NCBI GenBank assembly: GCA_913062575.1
Contig: CAJXVT010000002.1
Span: 1 to 64,000, forward strand
DNA length: 64,000 nucleotides
Direction: 5' to 3'
DNA from: an uncultured Flavobacteriaceae bacterium
GTDB taxonomy: Bacteria > Bacteroidota > Bacteroidia > Flavobacteriales > Flavobacteriaceae
The translations under genes were made by a program, and so were the position numbers. The notes below the pieces were generated by a model. That model was given only the letters and a program-made list of their open reading frames with translations. It did no database searches and was not told where the DNA came from. This document shows, piece after piece, positions 18,738 to 26,181 of this stretch; the stretch's first letter is position 1, and every line of letters begins with the position of its first letter.

Positions 18738-19499
18738 TCATTTTATTGATTTTATAAAATCTATAATTCCATTTACTCCAGTACTTTCTACGTTTTTTAT
18801 AAAAGCTGATCCTATGATTGCTCCATTTGCAAACTGACAAGCTGTATCAAAAGTTTTTTTATCAGAAATACCAAAACCAACAATTAAGTTACTTTTTAAA
18901 TTCATTGCTTTGATACGCTCAAAATAAGCTATTTGTTGATTGGAAATTTCTCCTTGTGCTCCTGTAATAGAAGAAGAAGCAACTACATAAATAAAAGCAT
19001 CAGTTAATGAATCAATTTTCTGAATGCGTTCATCTGATGTATGTGGTGTAATTAAAAATACATTTGTCAATCCATATTTTTGAAATAATTGCTGATAATG
19101 ATTTTCGTATTCTATCATTGGTAAATCTGGAAGAATCAATGTTTCAATTCCACAATCTACACAAGCCTGACAAAACTTGTCTTCTCCATACTTTAAAAGT
19201 TGATTCAAATACCCCATCAAAACTAAAGGAGTAGAATTGGTTTCTTTGATAGCTTTTAATTGCTCAAAGACAATATCTAAATTCATTCCGTTTTGCAAAG
19301 CTATTTGGCTACTATCCTGAATTGTAGGCCCATCTGCTAACGGATCAGAATATGGCAAGCCAACTTCTATAAAATCGACATTGCTTTTACTTAGTTCTGA
19401 AATGATTGTTTGTGTATCATTCAAGTTTGGAAAACCTGCTGTAAAAAAGATAGAAAGTAAGTTCTTTTTTTCTTGAAATAATTGATGTAGTCTATTCAT
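18738..19499 (-). CDS. trpA: Tryptophan synthase alpha subunit
   Basis: FFTAGFPNLNDT, DFIEVGLPYSDPLADGPTIQ, VGFGISDKKTF. Confidence 0.97.
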   Translation of the reverse strand: MNRLHQLFQEKKNLLSIFFTAGFPNLNDTQTIISELSKSNVDFIEVGLPYSDPLADGPTIQDSSQIALQNGMNLDIVFEQLKAIKETNSTPLVLMGYLNQLLKYGEDKFCQACVDCGIETLILPDLPMIEYENHYQQLFQKYGLTNVFLITPHTSDERIQKIDSLTDAFIYVVASSSITGAQGEISNQQIAYFERIKAMNLKSNLIVGFGISDKKTFDTACQFANGAIIGSAFIKNVESTGVNGIIDFIKSIK

Positions 19500-20293
19500 T
19501 AGTTCGTCAATATTAACTGTTTTTCTTCAATTTTAATAGCAATTGCATCCCATAATTGAATTCGCTGTTTTAAAGAGTCTTTTGCGATTGTTAAAACTTC
19601 ATTCCATTTTTGTTCATCTTTACCACACAATTCTTCAATCATTTTTAATGATAACGGACCGTGTTCATCTCCATCTAATTCTATATGTCGGTGTAAATAA
19701 TACCTTAGCTTCGTATAGTGCTCTTTTGCATCGGATTCTTCTGCATTTTTCACAATTTCTAAAAACATATCAGGGATTACATCTTCTCTTCCAAAAGTAA
19801 AAGCCGATGCAATTTTATGAGCTTGATTTGTATTAATTTGATCAAAAGTAGCCGTTACAAATTCTTTTACAGATGATAAAATTGCTACAGACCTCAAAGA
19901 ATCCTCAACCGAAACTCCTTTTTTTATCTCTTGGACAAAAACATTGACCTTAGACACATCTGCTCCAACTTCTTCCATTGCGTCTACATACATTTCATAA
20001 TGACTTCTCGGTTGTCCTAACTCATTGATATCACTTTCTTCTGCATGAACAATCTCATTAACAAATCTAGCTACAGAAGTATTCTCACTTGGCAACCACG
20101 GCACAGAAACACAGGTTAATTGTTGCTGTAATGCTTTTAACAGAGACATAAAATCCCATACTGCAAACACATGATTCTCCATGAAAACTTTCACATCATC
20201 AATGGACGAAAGTTTTGCATACAATACATGATTTTTCAGTTGTTCTCTTAAAGGGTTCAATTCCTTTTCTATAAATGCTATTTTAGTATTCAT
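19499..20293 (-). CDS. DUF3050-like protein (predicted heme-oxygenase-like fold) inside the trp operon
   Basis: [39 protein letters not shown] and [15 protein letters not shown] match my recollection of DUF3050; 1-nt TAATG overlaps with trpB and trpA. Confidence 0.8.
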
Positions 20294-21480
20294 TATGCCT
20301 CTAAATGATTGATATACGTTTCTAAATCTTTATCTCCTCTACCAGATAAATTCACTACAACAACCTGTTCTTTTTTCAAATCCATTTTTGGTAAAACGGC
20401 CAAAGCATGTGCACTTTCTAATGCAGGAATAATTCCCTCTATTTTCGTTAACTCATAAGCAGCATTTAATGCTTCTTGATCTGTAGCATTCATAAATTTC
20501 GCTCGCTTGGTTTCGTGTAAATAGGCATGTAAAGGTCCAACTCCTGGGTAATCCAATCCTGCAGAAATTGAATATGGCTCCACAATTTGCCCATATTCAT
20601 CTTGCATTAAAATAGTTTTACTACCATGAATTACACCGACATCTCCTAATTGAGAAGTAGCAGCACTTTCTCCAGAATCTACTCCTAAACCCGCAGCTTC
20701 AACAGCAATTAATACTACTTCTTCATCTTCTAAATAATGATAAAAAGCACCTGCGGCATTAGATCCTCCTCCAACACAAGCAATAATTGTATCTGGATTT
20801 TCTTTACCTGTTTGTGCTTTTAATTGCACTTTCATCTCTTCTGAGATTACAGCTTGCAAACGCGCAACCATATCAGGGTATGGATGTGGACCAACAACAG
20901 AGCCTATTAAATAATAAGTTTCAGGATGTTGAATCCAATATCTGATTGCTTCATTTGTAGCATCTTTCAACGTTTTACTTCCACTAATTGCCGGTATAAC
21001 AGTAGCTCCTAACATTTTCATACGAGCTACATTTGGAGCTTGACGTTTGATGTCAACCTCTCCCATAAACACCACACATTCCAAATTCATCAATGCACAA
21101 ACGGTTGCCGTTGCAACGCCATGCTGCCCTGCTCCTGTTTCCGCAATAATTTTAGTTTTCCCTAAATGTTTCGCCACTAAAATCTGACCAATGGTATTGT
21201 TTATTTTATGAGCGCCAGTATGATTTAAATCTTCTCGTTTTAAATAAATAGTAGCTCCATATTTTTCTGACAAACGTTTGGCTAGATACAACGGACTTGG
21301 CCTACCAACATAATGCTGCAATAGATCTTTATATTCTTTCTGAAAAGCATCAGATGATAAAATATCTAAATAATTATCTTCTAATTCCTTTACATTTGGA
21401 TATAACAATTCAGGAATAAATGCTCCACCAAATTGGCCGTAATATCCTTCTTTAGTTGGTTCGTATTTACTTTTCATCAA
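20293..21480 (-). CDS. trpB: Tryptophan synthase beta subunit
   Basis: [37 protein letters not shown]. Confidence 0.98.
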
Positions 21481-22129
21481 TTCTTAAATTTGATAAATTA
21501 TTTTTAAAATTTCTTAATTCTTCTACGTTTTTCAATGCGATATCTATTTCAAACCCACTATTTACATCCAATCCAATACAGTATTTTGAAGCTTCTGTTT
21601 TAAAAAAATCGTTGAGTGAATTTACATCTGTAAGTGATATTCCTCCACTCAATAAATACGGTTTTGTCCCGCTATAATTTGACAAAATCTTCCATGAAAA
21701 TTTTTCACCATTTCCTCCATGATATTTTCCTTTTGTATCGAATAAAAAATAATCACATACTTCTTCAAACTCTTTAGTTACTTCAAAATCAAAATCATCA
21801 TCAACAGAAAACACTTTTATGATTTCTATATTTTTATTGATGATTCCGTCTCTTTTCCGAACCTCTCTACAATAGCCAACGGTTTCTGTGCCTCCATGCA
21901 ATTGGACACAATCTAACTCATATTTATTTGCTATTTCAATGACATCACCGACCCAATCACTTACAAATACTCCTACTTTTTTTATCGTTTTTGGAATTTC
22001 AACAAAAGGAAAATCAACCACATTTCTAAGGGAGTTTTCATAAAAAATAAAACCTATAAAGTCAGGTTGAATTTTTAGTAATTCCGATATATTATCGGCG
22101 TCACGCATTCCGCAAACTTTTAACTTCAT
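21467..22129 (-). CDS. trpF: Phosphoribosylanthranilate isomerase
   Basis: [29 protein letters not shown]. Confidence 0.95.
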
Positions 22130-22131
22130 AA

Positions 22132-22917
22132 CTATCTAATTTGACTAATAAACTCTTGACAAGCAATTCCTGGATCTTCTTCTTTCATAAAATTCTCACC
22201 AATTAAAAATCCATGAAACCCATATTCTTTTAAACCTGAAATAATTTTAGGATCTGAAATCCCACTTTCAGAAACCTTTACACAAGTATCAGGAATCTGA
22301 TTTGCTAATAGAATTGAATTCTCTAAATCAACTTCAAACGATTTCAAGTTTCTATTATTAATTCCGATAATCTTATTATTCAATTCAATCTTATCTAAAT
22401 CTTCTTGAGTATGCACCTCATACAATACCTCCAAGCCTAAATCAGTAGCTAACTGTCCATAGTTTTTCAACTCTTGTTTTGTCAAACAAGCAGCAATTAA
22501 TAAAATTACATCTGCACCAATTGCTTTTGCTTCTACAATCTGAAATCCATCAACAATAAAGTCTTTACGTAAGATTGGTTTGATTTGATTTACAACTCTT
22601 GCCTCCATCAAATCAGCCATCGTTCCTCCAAAAAATGAAGTATCTGTTAAGATAGATTGTGCTGCTACATTTGCATCCAAATATCCATTTGTAACATCTA
22701 CAATTTTAGCCTTATCATTAATGACTCCCTTAGAAGGTGACTGGCGCTTAAACTCTGCTATGATTCCTGTAGAACCTACTTCTAACAACGACTTTTTTAA
22801 TGAAAGTGGCTGTCTCTGAAAATTTGGACTTGCTACCAATTTACTAACTGGAACTTCTGCTTTAATCTTAGCAACTTCCTTCTTTTTAAATGCGATTATT
22901 TTATCTAAAATTGTCAT
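22132..22917 (-). CDS. trpC: Indole-3-glycerol phosphate synthase
   Basis: IIAEFKRQSPSKG, ILRKDFIVDGFQIVEAKAIGADVILLI, GINNRNLKSFEVD. Confidence 0.97.
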   Translation of the reverse strand: MTILDKIIAFKKKEVAKIKAEVPVSKLVASPNFQRQPLSLKKSLLEVGSTGIIAEFKRQSPSKGVINDKAKIVDVTNGYLDANVAAQSILTDTSFFGGTMADLMEARVVNQIKPILRKDFIVDGFQIVEAKAIGADVILLIAACLTKQELKNYGQLATDLGLEVLYEVHTQEDLDKIELNNKIIGINNRNLKSFEVDLENSILLANQIPDTCVKVSESGISDPKIISGLKEYGFHGFLIGENFMKEEDPGIACQEFISQIR

Positions 22918-22918
22918 T

Positions 22919-23908
22919 TTACTTTTGTACTAATTTCGTTAAACTTTGTTTTGCTTTCAATCCAAAAAGCGATTCTTTAGCTTCTGCAAAAGTATCATGA
23001 AAAGATTTAGTATCATCAACAATTTTCAAAGCAAAAGCAGCATTTGTTAAAACTACATTGTTTTGCGCTTCAGTTCCTTTCCCTTCTAAAATTGTTTTGA
23101 AAATTTTTGCTGCATCTGCAACAGAGCTTCCTCCAAAAATATCAGATTTCTCAATGTTTTTAAACCCTAAATCTTCTGGAGTAATCAATTCTTCTCCTTG
23201 TTTTGTAAATAGTTTAAACGCACCTGTTAAAGAGATTTCATCGTAGCCATCTAATGCATGTACTATTCCGTAGTTAATCCCTTCTTCTTGCAATATATAA
23301 TTATACAACCTGGCAACTTCTAGATTAAAAGTTCCCAACATTTGATTTTGTGGCGAACTTGGATTTACTAATGGACCTAACATATTAAAAAACGTTTTTA
23401 GCTTCAACGCTTTTCTAGTTGGGCCAGCAGCTTTCATTGCTGGATGAAACTTTGGCGCATGTAAAAAACAAATATTTGCTGATTCTAATTGCTGCTTCAA
23501 AACATTTTCATCATTGGTGAATTCATACCCAAAACTGGCTAACATATCTGAAGAACCAGATTGTGAAGACACAGAATAATTTCCATGTTTCGCTACTTTT
23601 TGTCCCGTTCCAGCAACAATAAAAGAGGTTAATGTAGAAATATTAAAAGTATCTTTCCCGTCTCCACCAGTTCCAACAATATCAATCGTATTAAACTCAG
23701 ATAAATCTACTTTAATAGCCAACTCTAATAAGGCATTTCTAAACCCAGAAAGTTCATCTACCGTTATAGGACGCATCATGAACACCGTCATAAAAGATGC
23801 TAAATGTGCATCATTGTATTTGGCTGCTGCGATATTTATCAAGATCTCTTTGGCTTGTGATTTTGACAATGTTTTTTGCTGATATAAATCGTTTAGGATT
23901 GCTTTCAT
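22919..23908 (-). CDS. trpD: Anthranilate phosphoribosyltransferase
   Basis: DIVGTGGDGKDTFNIST, KHGNYSVSSQSGSSD. Confidence 0.97.
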   Translation of the reverse strand: MKAILNDLYQQKTLSKSQAKEILINIAAAKYNDAHLASFMTVFMMRPITVDELSGFRNALLELAIKVDLSEFNTIDIVGTGGDGKDTFNISTLTSFIVAGTGQKVAKHGNYSVSSQSGSSDMLASFGYEFTNDENVLKQQLESANICFLHAPKFHPAMKAAGPTRKALKLKTFFNMLGPLVNPSSPQNQMLGTFNLEVARLYNYILQEEGINYGIVHALDGYDEISLTGAFKLFTKQGEELITPEDLGFKNIEKSDIFGGSSVADAAKIFKTILEGKGTEAQNNVVLTNAAFALKIVDDTKSFHDTFAEAKESLFGLKAKQSLTKLVQK

Positions 23909-24483
23909 TTCTCCACAGTTTCTAAAAAGTTCCGAACTATTTGCTCTCCAACTTCTGTTAAAATAGATTCTGGATGAAACTGAACTGCAGAGACATTAAA
24001 TTCTTTATGTTGAATTGCCTGAATCTCTCCATCTTCATCAACCGCAGTAATTGCAATTGTTCTTGGGAAATTTTCTTTTGAAGCTATCCAAGAATGGTAT
24101 CTAGCTGCTTCAAATTTCTGTGGAATTCCTTTAAAAATATCTGCTTTACTTTCGATGATTTCCATTTCTGTAGCTACCCCATGAAACACTTCTCCCATGT
24201 TTTCAATCTGCCCGCCAAAAACTTCTGTAATTGCTTGCAATCCTAAGCACACTCCGAAAATTGGAATTCTTCCTGCATAAGTTGCAATTACATCTTTTAA
24301 GATTCCTGCTTCATCAGGAACTCCTGGTCCTGGAGATAACATAATTACATCATATCTCTCTATGTCTTCTAAAGCTATTTCATCGTTACGAAATACATCT
24401 GGTAAATTCCCTGTAATATCTTCTACCATGTGTACCAAATTGTAGGTAAACGAATCGTAATTGTCTAATATTAGTATCTTCAT
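23905..24483 (-). CDS. trpG: Anthranilate synthase component II (glutamine amidotransferase)
   Basis: LDNYDSFTYNLVH, SPGPGVPDEAG, FGVCLGLQAI, QFHPESILT. Confidence 0.97.
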   Translation of the reverse strand: MKILILDNYDSFTYNLVHMVEDITGNLPDVFRNDEIALEDIERYDVIMLSPGPGVPDEAGILKDVIATYAGRIPIFGVCLGLQAITEVFGGQIENMGEVFHGVATEMEIIESKADIFKGIPQKFEAARYHSWIASKENFPRTIAITAVDEDGEIQAIQHKEFNVSAVQFHPESILTEVGEQIVRNFLETVEK

Positions 24484-24531: not shown

Positions 24532-25941
24532 CTAAATCTCCTCTGCTAAAAACAATGCCTTTTTCAACGCTGCTAATTTATTATTTACTTCTTGTAATTC
24601 TTTTTCTTCATCAGAATGGATGACAATTCCAGCACCAGCCTGGTAATACAACACATTATTCTTACTCACAAAAGAACGAATTGCGATGGCTAAATTTACC
24701 GAACCATCTAAACCTATGATTCCAACGGCACCTCCATAAAAACCTCTAGATTGATTTTCATACTGATCAATCAGTTGCATCGCTTTATATTTTGGCGCAC
24801 CACTTAAGGTTCCTGCCGGAAAAGTATCTCCAACAATAGTAATTGGATTTCCTTTTATTTTTCCTTGCACTGTAGAAACTAAATGTATCACATGGCTAAA
24901 ATATTGCACTTCTTTAAACACCTCAACTTTCACATTATCGGCATGCTTACTTAAGTCGTTTCTTGCCAAATCAACTAACATTACATGTTCTGCTGTTTCT
25001 TTTTTATCTTCTGAAAGCTGTTTTCCAAGTTTGATATCCTCTGCCATATCTCCAGTCCTTCTGAATGTTCCTGCAATTGGATTGATAATTGCTTTACCCG
25101 CATTGATTTTAATTTGTGCTTCTGGCGAAGAACCCATCAATTTAAAAGAACCATAATCAAAATAAAACAAATAAGGTGATGGATTTATAGAACGTAACGC
25201 TCTGTACACATTAAACTCATCACCTTTAAATTCTTGTTGAAATTGACGCGATAACACCAGTTGAAAGACATCACCACGTTTACAATGTGCTTTTGCTTTG
25301 ACAACATATTCTTTAAAATCATCATCTGTACAATTTGAAGTTTCATCTCCTTTAATTTCGAATTTCTGTGTATTAAACGTTTGTGCTTCAATGATAGTTT
25401 CAATTTCAGAAATTCTAGATTCAGTTCCTGCTTCTACATTTTCAATCAAAGTCATTTCATCATTAAAATGATTAATGGCAATAATAAACCGGTAAAAACT
25501 GTACTGCATTAACGGAATTTTAGATGGAGCGTCTTTAACAGTTAGTTCAATATTTTCAAAATACTGAACACTATCATAGGTTGTATATCCGTACAAACCA
25601 TTAAATGATTTTAGTTTTGCATTGCAATCCAAATCAATAGACTTTGAGAAATTGTCGAACAATTCATAAAAATTCTTATCGACAGCATATTCATCTATCG
25701 TTTCTCCTTTTTGAAATACAGAAAATTTATGATTTTCTACTTTCATTGTCACTATCGGCTCTATACAAATAAAAGAAAAACTTTCTTCTTTACTATGATA
25801 ATCTGAACTCTCTAACAATAAAGAATTGGCGTATTTGTCTCTAAATCTTAAATACAAACCAACCGGAGTTACGGTGTCTGAAATGCGAGTGGAACTTATC
25901 GTTTTAAATTGTAGTTTTTTCATAAATTCTTGTAATTGCAA
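24532..25941 (-). CDS. trpE: Anthranilate synthase component I
   Basis: QLVLSRQF, INPSPYLFYF, PIAGTFRRTGD, TFPAGTLSGAPKYKAMQLID. Confidence 0.97.
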   Translation of the reverse strand: MQLQEFMKKLQFKTISSTRISDTVTPVGLYLRFRDKYANSLLLESSDYHSKEESFSFICIEPIVTMKVENHKFSVFQKGETIDEYAVDKNFYELFDNFSKSIDLDCNAKLKSFNGLYGYTTYDSVQYFENIELTVKDAPSKIPLMQYSFYRFIIAINHFNDEMTLIENVEAGTESRISEIETIIEAQTFNTQKFEIKGDETSNCTDDDFKEYVVKAKAHCKRGDVFQLVLSRQFQQEFKGDEFNVYRALRSINPSPYLFYFDYGSFKLMGSSPEAQIKINAGKAIINPIAGTFRRTGDMAEDIKLGKQLSEDKKETAEHVMLVDLARNDLSKHADNVKVEVFKEVQYFSHVIHLVSTVQGKIKGNPITIVGDTFPAGTLSGAPKYKAMQLIDQYENQSRGFYGGAVGIIGLDGSVNLAIAIRSFVSKNNVLYYQAGAGIVIHSDEEKELQEVNNKLAALKKALFLAEEI

Positions 25942-26030
25942 AGCAAATGATAATTTGCCATGGCAATCTTTTTATTAATTAAGAGATTACTTCGTCGTAA
26001 ACTCCTCGTATTGACTTGTTCTTAAAAACA

Positions 26031-26060
26031 AAAAAGGCTTATCGTGAGATAAGCCTTTTT
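26031..26060 (-). terminator. trp attenuator terminator (hairpin 3:4) upstream of trpE
   Basis: Minus strand AAAAAGGCTTATC-TCAC-GATAAGCCTTTTT followed by TGTTTTT; perfect 13-bp stem, 4-nt loop, ~90 bp before trpE. Confidence 0.9.
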
Positions 26061-26098
26061 AATTATGTTATATATACATATAGGATTTTCCTCACTTA

Positions 26099-26143
26099 TC
26101 AGTTAAGAGAGTTCCACCACCATATGTTTTGTTGTTTCATCAT
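26099..26143 (-). CDS. trpL: trp operon leader peptide MMKQQNIWWWNSLN
   Basis: Minus strand ATGATGAAACAACAAAACATATGGTGGTGGAACTCTCTTAACTGA: three consecutive Trp codons in a 14-aa ORF, 38 nt upstream of the attenuator hairpin. Confidence 0.9.
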   Translation of the reverse strand: MMKQQNIWWWNSLN

Positions 26144-26150
26144 TGAGGTA

Positions 26151-26181
26151 CAAATGTATAATACATTTTTAAATGACCAAA
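26151..26181 (-). promoter_or_regulatory. Predicted trp promoter (TTTG-N19-TACATTTG)
   Basis: Minus strand TTTG GTCATTTAAAAATGTATTA TACATTTG matches the Bacteroidota -33/-7 consensus. An alternative -7 box TATATTTG lies at 26185-26178. Confidence 0.6.

Follow-up and report, generated by a model that had tools for sequence, protein, structure and literature searches.

A predicted ribosome-mediated attenuator of the Bacteroid-trp family upstream of the trp operon of an uncultured Flavobacteriaceae bacterium

The region preceding the trp operon of this uncultured flavobacterium raises the question of which type of control element it contains, and whether such an element is unusual among Bacteroidota. 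In the window (i.e., the whole stretch of DNA analyzed, 64 kb in length) the trp operon, trpEGDCFB-(DUF3050)-trpA, is intact and located entirely downstream of the element, with the divergently oriented asnB (26381, plus strand) on the other flank. The element combines a Trp-rich leader with a switchable stop signal and, therefore, transcription probably continues into the operon only under tryptophan shortage. With a probability of about 0.9, it represents a ribosome-mediated transcription attenuator of the trp operon belonging to the Bacteroid-trp family. Its features are listed below, "genus" referring to the genus of the source organism (58 loci) and "family" to the Flavobacteriaceae.

26177-26181, minus strand: putative -33 element TTTGG; the T-rich/TTG position is conserved at -35 to -33 in the genus
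26151-26158, minus strand: -7 promoter element TACATTTG (TAnnTTTG), showing no variation when 57 loci of the genus are aligned on it
26144-26146, minus strand: predicted 5' UTR of about 3 nt; the transcription start is predicted near 26146-26145 from published spacing
26143-26031, minus strand: whole attenuator, 5' of trpE, comprising leader ORF, 1:2 hairpin and terminator
26099-26143, minus strand: leader peptide ORF ATGATGAAACAACAAAACATATGGTGGTGGAACTCTCTTAACTGA, encoding MMKQQNIWWWNSLN followed by a stop; 14 codons, Trp codons at 26122-26114
26104-26111, minus strand: segment 1, CTCTCTTA, after the Trp codons
26090-26100, minus strand: segment 2, GATAAGTGAGG, partner of segment 1 or of the terminator loop/5' arm
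26075-26085, minus strand: outer 1:2 helix, 3' strand (approximate, around CCTATATGT), partner of the Trp-codon region
26031-26060, minus strand: intrinsic terminator (3:4), AAAAAGGCTTATC-TCAC-GATAAGCCTTTTT, 13 bp, T-rich tail at 26030-26024
24532-25923, minus strand: trpE, first gene of the operon, with its ATG at 25923
18738-24483, minus strand: remaining operon, i.e., trpG, trpD, trpC, trpF, trpB, a DUF3050 gene and trpA

The gene between trpB and trpA (19499-20293, minus strand) encodes a DUF3050 protein (PF11251, E 1.5e-101) with weak similarity to Haem_oxygenas_2.

Family assignment and distribution

The Rfam family RF01692 (Bacteroid-trp, "Bacteroidete tryptophan peptide leader RNA"), originating from Weinberg et al. 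2010 (PMC2864571), matches positions 26163-26048 over the full length of its model (1-131) with 52.6 bits (gathering cut-off 49), and is the sole Rfam family above its cut-off within the window. BTnc231 and other sub-threshold Rfam matches were rejected as comprising essentially the terminator hairpin alone. The element shares with RF01692 the phylum, the place before trp genes, the Trp-codon leader, the 1:2 hairpin and the start of the terminator. However, the consensus structure of the model comprises only the long 1:2 hairpin, stops within the terminator 5' arm, and lacks the loop-directed 2:3 pairing as well as the -7 promoter box. In Flavobacterium psychrophilum, another member of the Flavobacteriaceae, the same element precedes the trp operon and is compared to E. 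coli attenuation in passages of PMC6414381, and clues for leader-peptide attenuation 5' of amino-acid operons are given in parts of PMC9723704. Because of the RF01692 match and these reports on F. psychrophilum, the kind of element is already known: by sequence comparison it is to be regarded as a well-supported, unexceptional representative of an established attenuator family, previously recognized in Flavobacteriaceae. The first-pass annotation had considered such attenuators best documented in Proteobacteria, implying an unusual occurrence in Bacteroidota; this view is not supported, since the element is RF01692 (PMC2864571; passages of PMC6414381 and PMC9723704).

Matches to RF01692 were obtained in 58 of 60 genus genomes (E <= 0.5), in 211 of 300 sampled family genomes (E <= 0.001; 173 of 237 genera), and in 27 of 388 genomes drawn from the class, several of these belonging to other families. 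Among 20 RF01692-negative family genomes checked, 13 contained a strong full-length trpE match together with upstream sequence, and in 12 of these 13 a WW or WWW leader ORF is located close 5' of trpE, in most cases with a -7 box 4-15 nt 5' of its AUG. Thus, the RF01692 model under-calls, and almost all of the sampled family genomes that possess a bona fide trpE carry the element, including those missed by Rfam.

Leader ORF, hairpins and terminator

A WW(W) ORF was found in 168 of the 175 loci fetched, accompanied in 167 of these 168 by a terminator situated between the leader ORF and the first structural gene. Four weak second RF01692 matches (L148-L151, E 0.09-0.35) lack a WW leader and were left out as chance matches. 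Of 167 loci, 159 encode three consecutive Trp residues (WWW) and 8 encode two (WW), while the peptide is variable between loci outside this run, with 2 to 9 or more codons following WWW.

This variability bears on the possibility that attenuation is real, and that the released leader RNA and/or peptide additionally act in trans, in the manner of rnTrpL/peTrpL of Sinorhizobium meliloti. There, a 14-aa trp leader peptide is encoded by an RNA starting at the AUG (leaderless), and trans roles have been shown (PMC7298713). The format agrees, i.e., a terminated RNA of ~110-120 nt starting beside the AUG and a 14-aa peptide, but conservation of the peptide does not extend beyond WWW, and such an additional function is considered very improbable here.

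Segment 1 (CTCTCTTA) forms 7 of 8 pairs with TAAGTGAG (26098-26091) of segment 2 (GATAAGTGAG), which overlaps or just follows the leader stop codon. Of 160 loci, 158 show this 1:2 pairing in their minimum free energy (MFE) structure, and in 144 of 160 the Trp codons pair 3' of segment 2 to form the outer helix, as in the Rfam structure. Pair types in 1:2 differ by clade, the pair at the base before GTGA being, for instance, U-A within the genus but G-C outside it; pair counts come from anchored counting, a mixed-clade MAFFT alignment shifting segment 2 by 2 nt between clades. When segments were swapped between loci, the 1:2 duplex was more stable with the locus's own partner across all loci (-6.81 versus -4.62 kcal/mol, sd 0.16), in the genus (-6.63 versus -6.09, sd 0.15) and in non-genus loci (-6.89 versus -5.45); all such swaps retain shared ancestry. 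Within the genus, compensatory changes were found in 0 of 15 hairpin pairs, because the hairpins are nearly invariant there.

The terminator stem is perfect over 13 bp and followed by TGTTTTT. The region as a whole has an RNA MFE of -33.3 kcal/mol, whereas shuffled versions average -16.45 (z = -5.6) and none of 200 folded as well. TCAC forms the loop in 54 of 74 leader-region hairpins versus 0 of 25 other terminator-like hairpins from the same loci; thus, it is not a generic terminator loop.

Several claims of the first-pass annotation are borne out by these data: the WWW leader ORF before trpE is read directly at 26143-26099 (minus strand), the pairing of segment 1 with segment 2 is present over 7 of 8 bp and recurs, as a 1:2 hairpin, in the MFE structure across loci, and the perfect 13-bp terminator with T tail is found at 26060-26031 (minus strand). 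It had also suggested checking relatives for conservation of TGG runs and for covariation of the stems. The former is evident from the WWW and WW counts given above; the latter is seen as clade-level pair changes and as higher stability of own over swapped duplexes, but not within the genus.

A plain terminator before trpE, preceded by a short ORF arising by chance and devoid of Trp sensing, would be compatible with the strength of the terminator on its own. It is nevertheless very improbable, since the WWW ORF, segment 1, segment 2 and the loop are jointly conserved across numerous genera (173 of 237 matched in the family) and the leader is also found before trpE in genomes where trpE served as query. 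Equally slight is the chance of a TnaC-like arrest peptide, with free tryptophan being sensed by the nascent WWW peptide instead of the ribosome stalling for lack of Trp-tRNA: the Trp residues are conserved in a short peptide, but its non-W residues and its length past WWW vary, conservation is confined to RNA-pairing positions, and the operon is biosynthetic rather than catabolic.

Between the terminator and trpE, a repeat-like string, TACGAGGAGTTTACGACGAAG, is located at 25990-26010 (minus strand). Similar strings also occur 3' of the terminator in the genus members L043, L123 and L125. A multicopy element was rejected, as the assembly contains one copy. In another genus member (L134), the terminator loop is flipped from TCAC to GTGA on an unchanged stem, as if the top of the hairpin had been inverted; its segment 2 is GTGGG, and loop pairing is weak and shifted.

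Partner of segment 2 and predicted switching

The first-pass annotation had proposed GATAAG:CTTATC as the 2:3 pairing, i.e., pairing of segment 2 (GATAAG at 26100-26095) with the terminator 5' arm. This pairing (6-7 bp) is indeed available and represents the MFE antiterminator in the source genome, whichever of the three Trp codons the ribosome occupies (-9.2 kcal/mol at the loop end, and also with six nucleotides of the 3' arm made). However, the full six-base match occurs in only 1 of 58 genus loci, namely that of the source genome, while five bases match in 34, four in 14 and three in 9; outside the genus, the match of segment 2 to the 5' arm is mostly 3 nt or less, or absent.

Conserved instead is the match of segment 2 to the terminator loop: GTGA:TCAC is paired in all 58 loci of the genus and in 94 of 95 others. 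The segment 2:loop helix has a mean length of 6.5 bp, compared to 2.3 bp with segment 2 shuffled. In the genus it takes the form GTGAG(A):(T)CTCAC and reaches into the 5' arm, whereas outside the genus, in most of the family, it takes the form GTCGTGA:TCACGAC or TCGTGAA:TTCACGA and reaches into the 3' arm. Across all loci, own pairings are slightly longer than swapped ones (6.54 versus 6.27 bp; 0 of 2000 swaps as long), a signal which lies mostly between clades: among non-genus loci it is weak (71 of 2000), and the genus by itself does not show it (478 of 2000). Judging from these pairing patterns, the conserved partner of segment 2 is the terminator loop plus flank, rather than the 5' arm via GATAAG:CTTATC.

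Transcripts of 154 loci were folded at successive lengths, with the 3' edge of the ribosome placed 15 nt from the P-site base. At some length, the antiterminator was the MFE structure in 148, 151 and 151 of the 154 loci with the ribosome at Trp codon 1, 2 and 3, respectively. For a ribosome placed at the stop codon the count was 0 of 154, and for RNA devoid of a ribosome 38 of 154. The stalled-versus-stop contrast is largely geometric, because segment 2 lies underneath the ribosome in the stop-codon state. Moreover, 62-74 % of loci still passed with segment 2 shuffled and 77-81 % with the loop shuffled, so that the percentage for the stalled state is only moderately above chance. The modelled folding thus reproduces the logic of attenuation, in a test that is loose. 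Since the complete terminator is thermodynamically favoured over the antiterminator, antitermination must be kinetic.

The following sequence of events is proposed. Transcription would start about 3 nt before the leader AUG, so that translation of the peptide would begin almost at the 5' end of the RNA. Given ample Trp-tRNA, the ribosome would reach the stop codon and cover segment 2, allowing the terminator to form before trpE. Under a shortage of Trp-tRNA, it would stall on UGGUGGUGG and break the 1:2 hairpin; segment 2, thereby freed, could pair with the terminator loop (GUGAG:CUCAC) and/or the 5' arm (GAUAAGU:GCUUAUC), which would block nucleation of the terminator and let trpE be read. 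In the absence of translation, the 1:2 hairpin would form and termination would be the default.

5' end and relation to known attenuators

The distance from the end of the -7 box to the leader AUG is 7 nt here, likewise 7 nt in 46 of 58 and 6-9 nt in 57 of 58 genus loci; elsewhere in the family the gap is bimodal (about 4-12 and 14-23 nt). By comparison, a box with a gap of 4-9 nt precedes only 1 of 51 ORFs of at least 100 aa in the window. The consensus of the Rfam model 5' of the AUG does not include the TAnnTTTG box, and the promoter-spacing pattern is therefore unlikely to be a selection artefact. This box class was defined in F. psychrophilum at -12 to -5 (parts of PMC9723704), and a distance of 4-5 nt between box and transcription start has been reported (PMC6847099). 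From the published spacing, the leader AUG would fall about 2-3 nt after the transcription start, a point absent from the first-pass annotation. Hence, the trp leader mRNA is predicted to be near-leaderless, with a 5' UTR of about 3 nt, in contrast to most flavobacterial mRNAs, which are leadered: leaderless mRNAs account for 5.5 % in F. psychrophilum (parts of PMC9723704). In F. johnsoniae, 87 % of leaders are longer than 10 nt. The leaderless trp leader of the alphaproteobacterium S. meliloti provides a precedent for near-leaderless geometry in another phylum, the RNA starting exactly at the AUG there and ~3 nt before it (predicted) here.

In E. coli trpL, it is the 5' arm of the terminator (segment 3) that serves as partner of segment 2, and the leader is well leadered and equipped with a Shine-Dalgarno site. 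The element studied here shares with trpL the tandem Trp codons, the four-segment 1:2 / 2:3 / 3:4 logic and the terminator before trpE, but differs in that segment 2 has its conserved partner in the terminator loop, to which most of the family adds the 3' arm. The E. coli-type geometry originally proposed for this locus is, accordingly, retained with respect to the Trp codons, the 1:2 hairpin and the terminator, and revised with respect to the conserved 2:3 partner, which is the loop. The passages on the F. psychrophilum trp leader in PMC6414381 and PMC9723704 contain no discussion of leaderless geometry or of the 2:3 partner, and no description of either sub-feature, the near-leaderless leader ORF or the loop-directed antiterminator, was found in the literature searched.

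Ribosomes of Bacteroidota lack Shine-Dalgarno recognition. One may speculate, at roughly even odds, that the reading of the genus attenuator from near-leaderless RNA and the loop-invading antiterminator helix of the family constitute a distinct variant suited to such non-Shine-Dalgarno ribosomes. The predicted near-leaderless geometry offers a testable case of how ribosomes of Bacteroidota load fast enough for attenuation, and the conserved pairing with the terminator loop offers a concrete mutational target for antitermination in this phylum.

In four loci from other families of the class (L152, L154, L156, L165), segment 2 reads CGTAAGG, and the terminators are longer and GC-rich, with loops of ACTT, ACCT or CTT.
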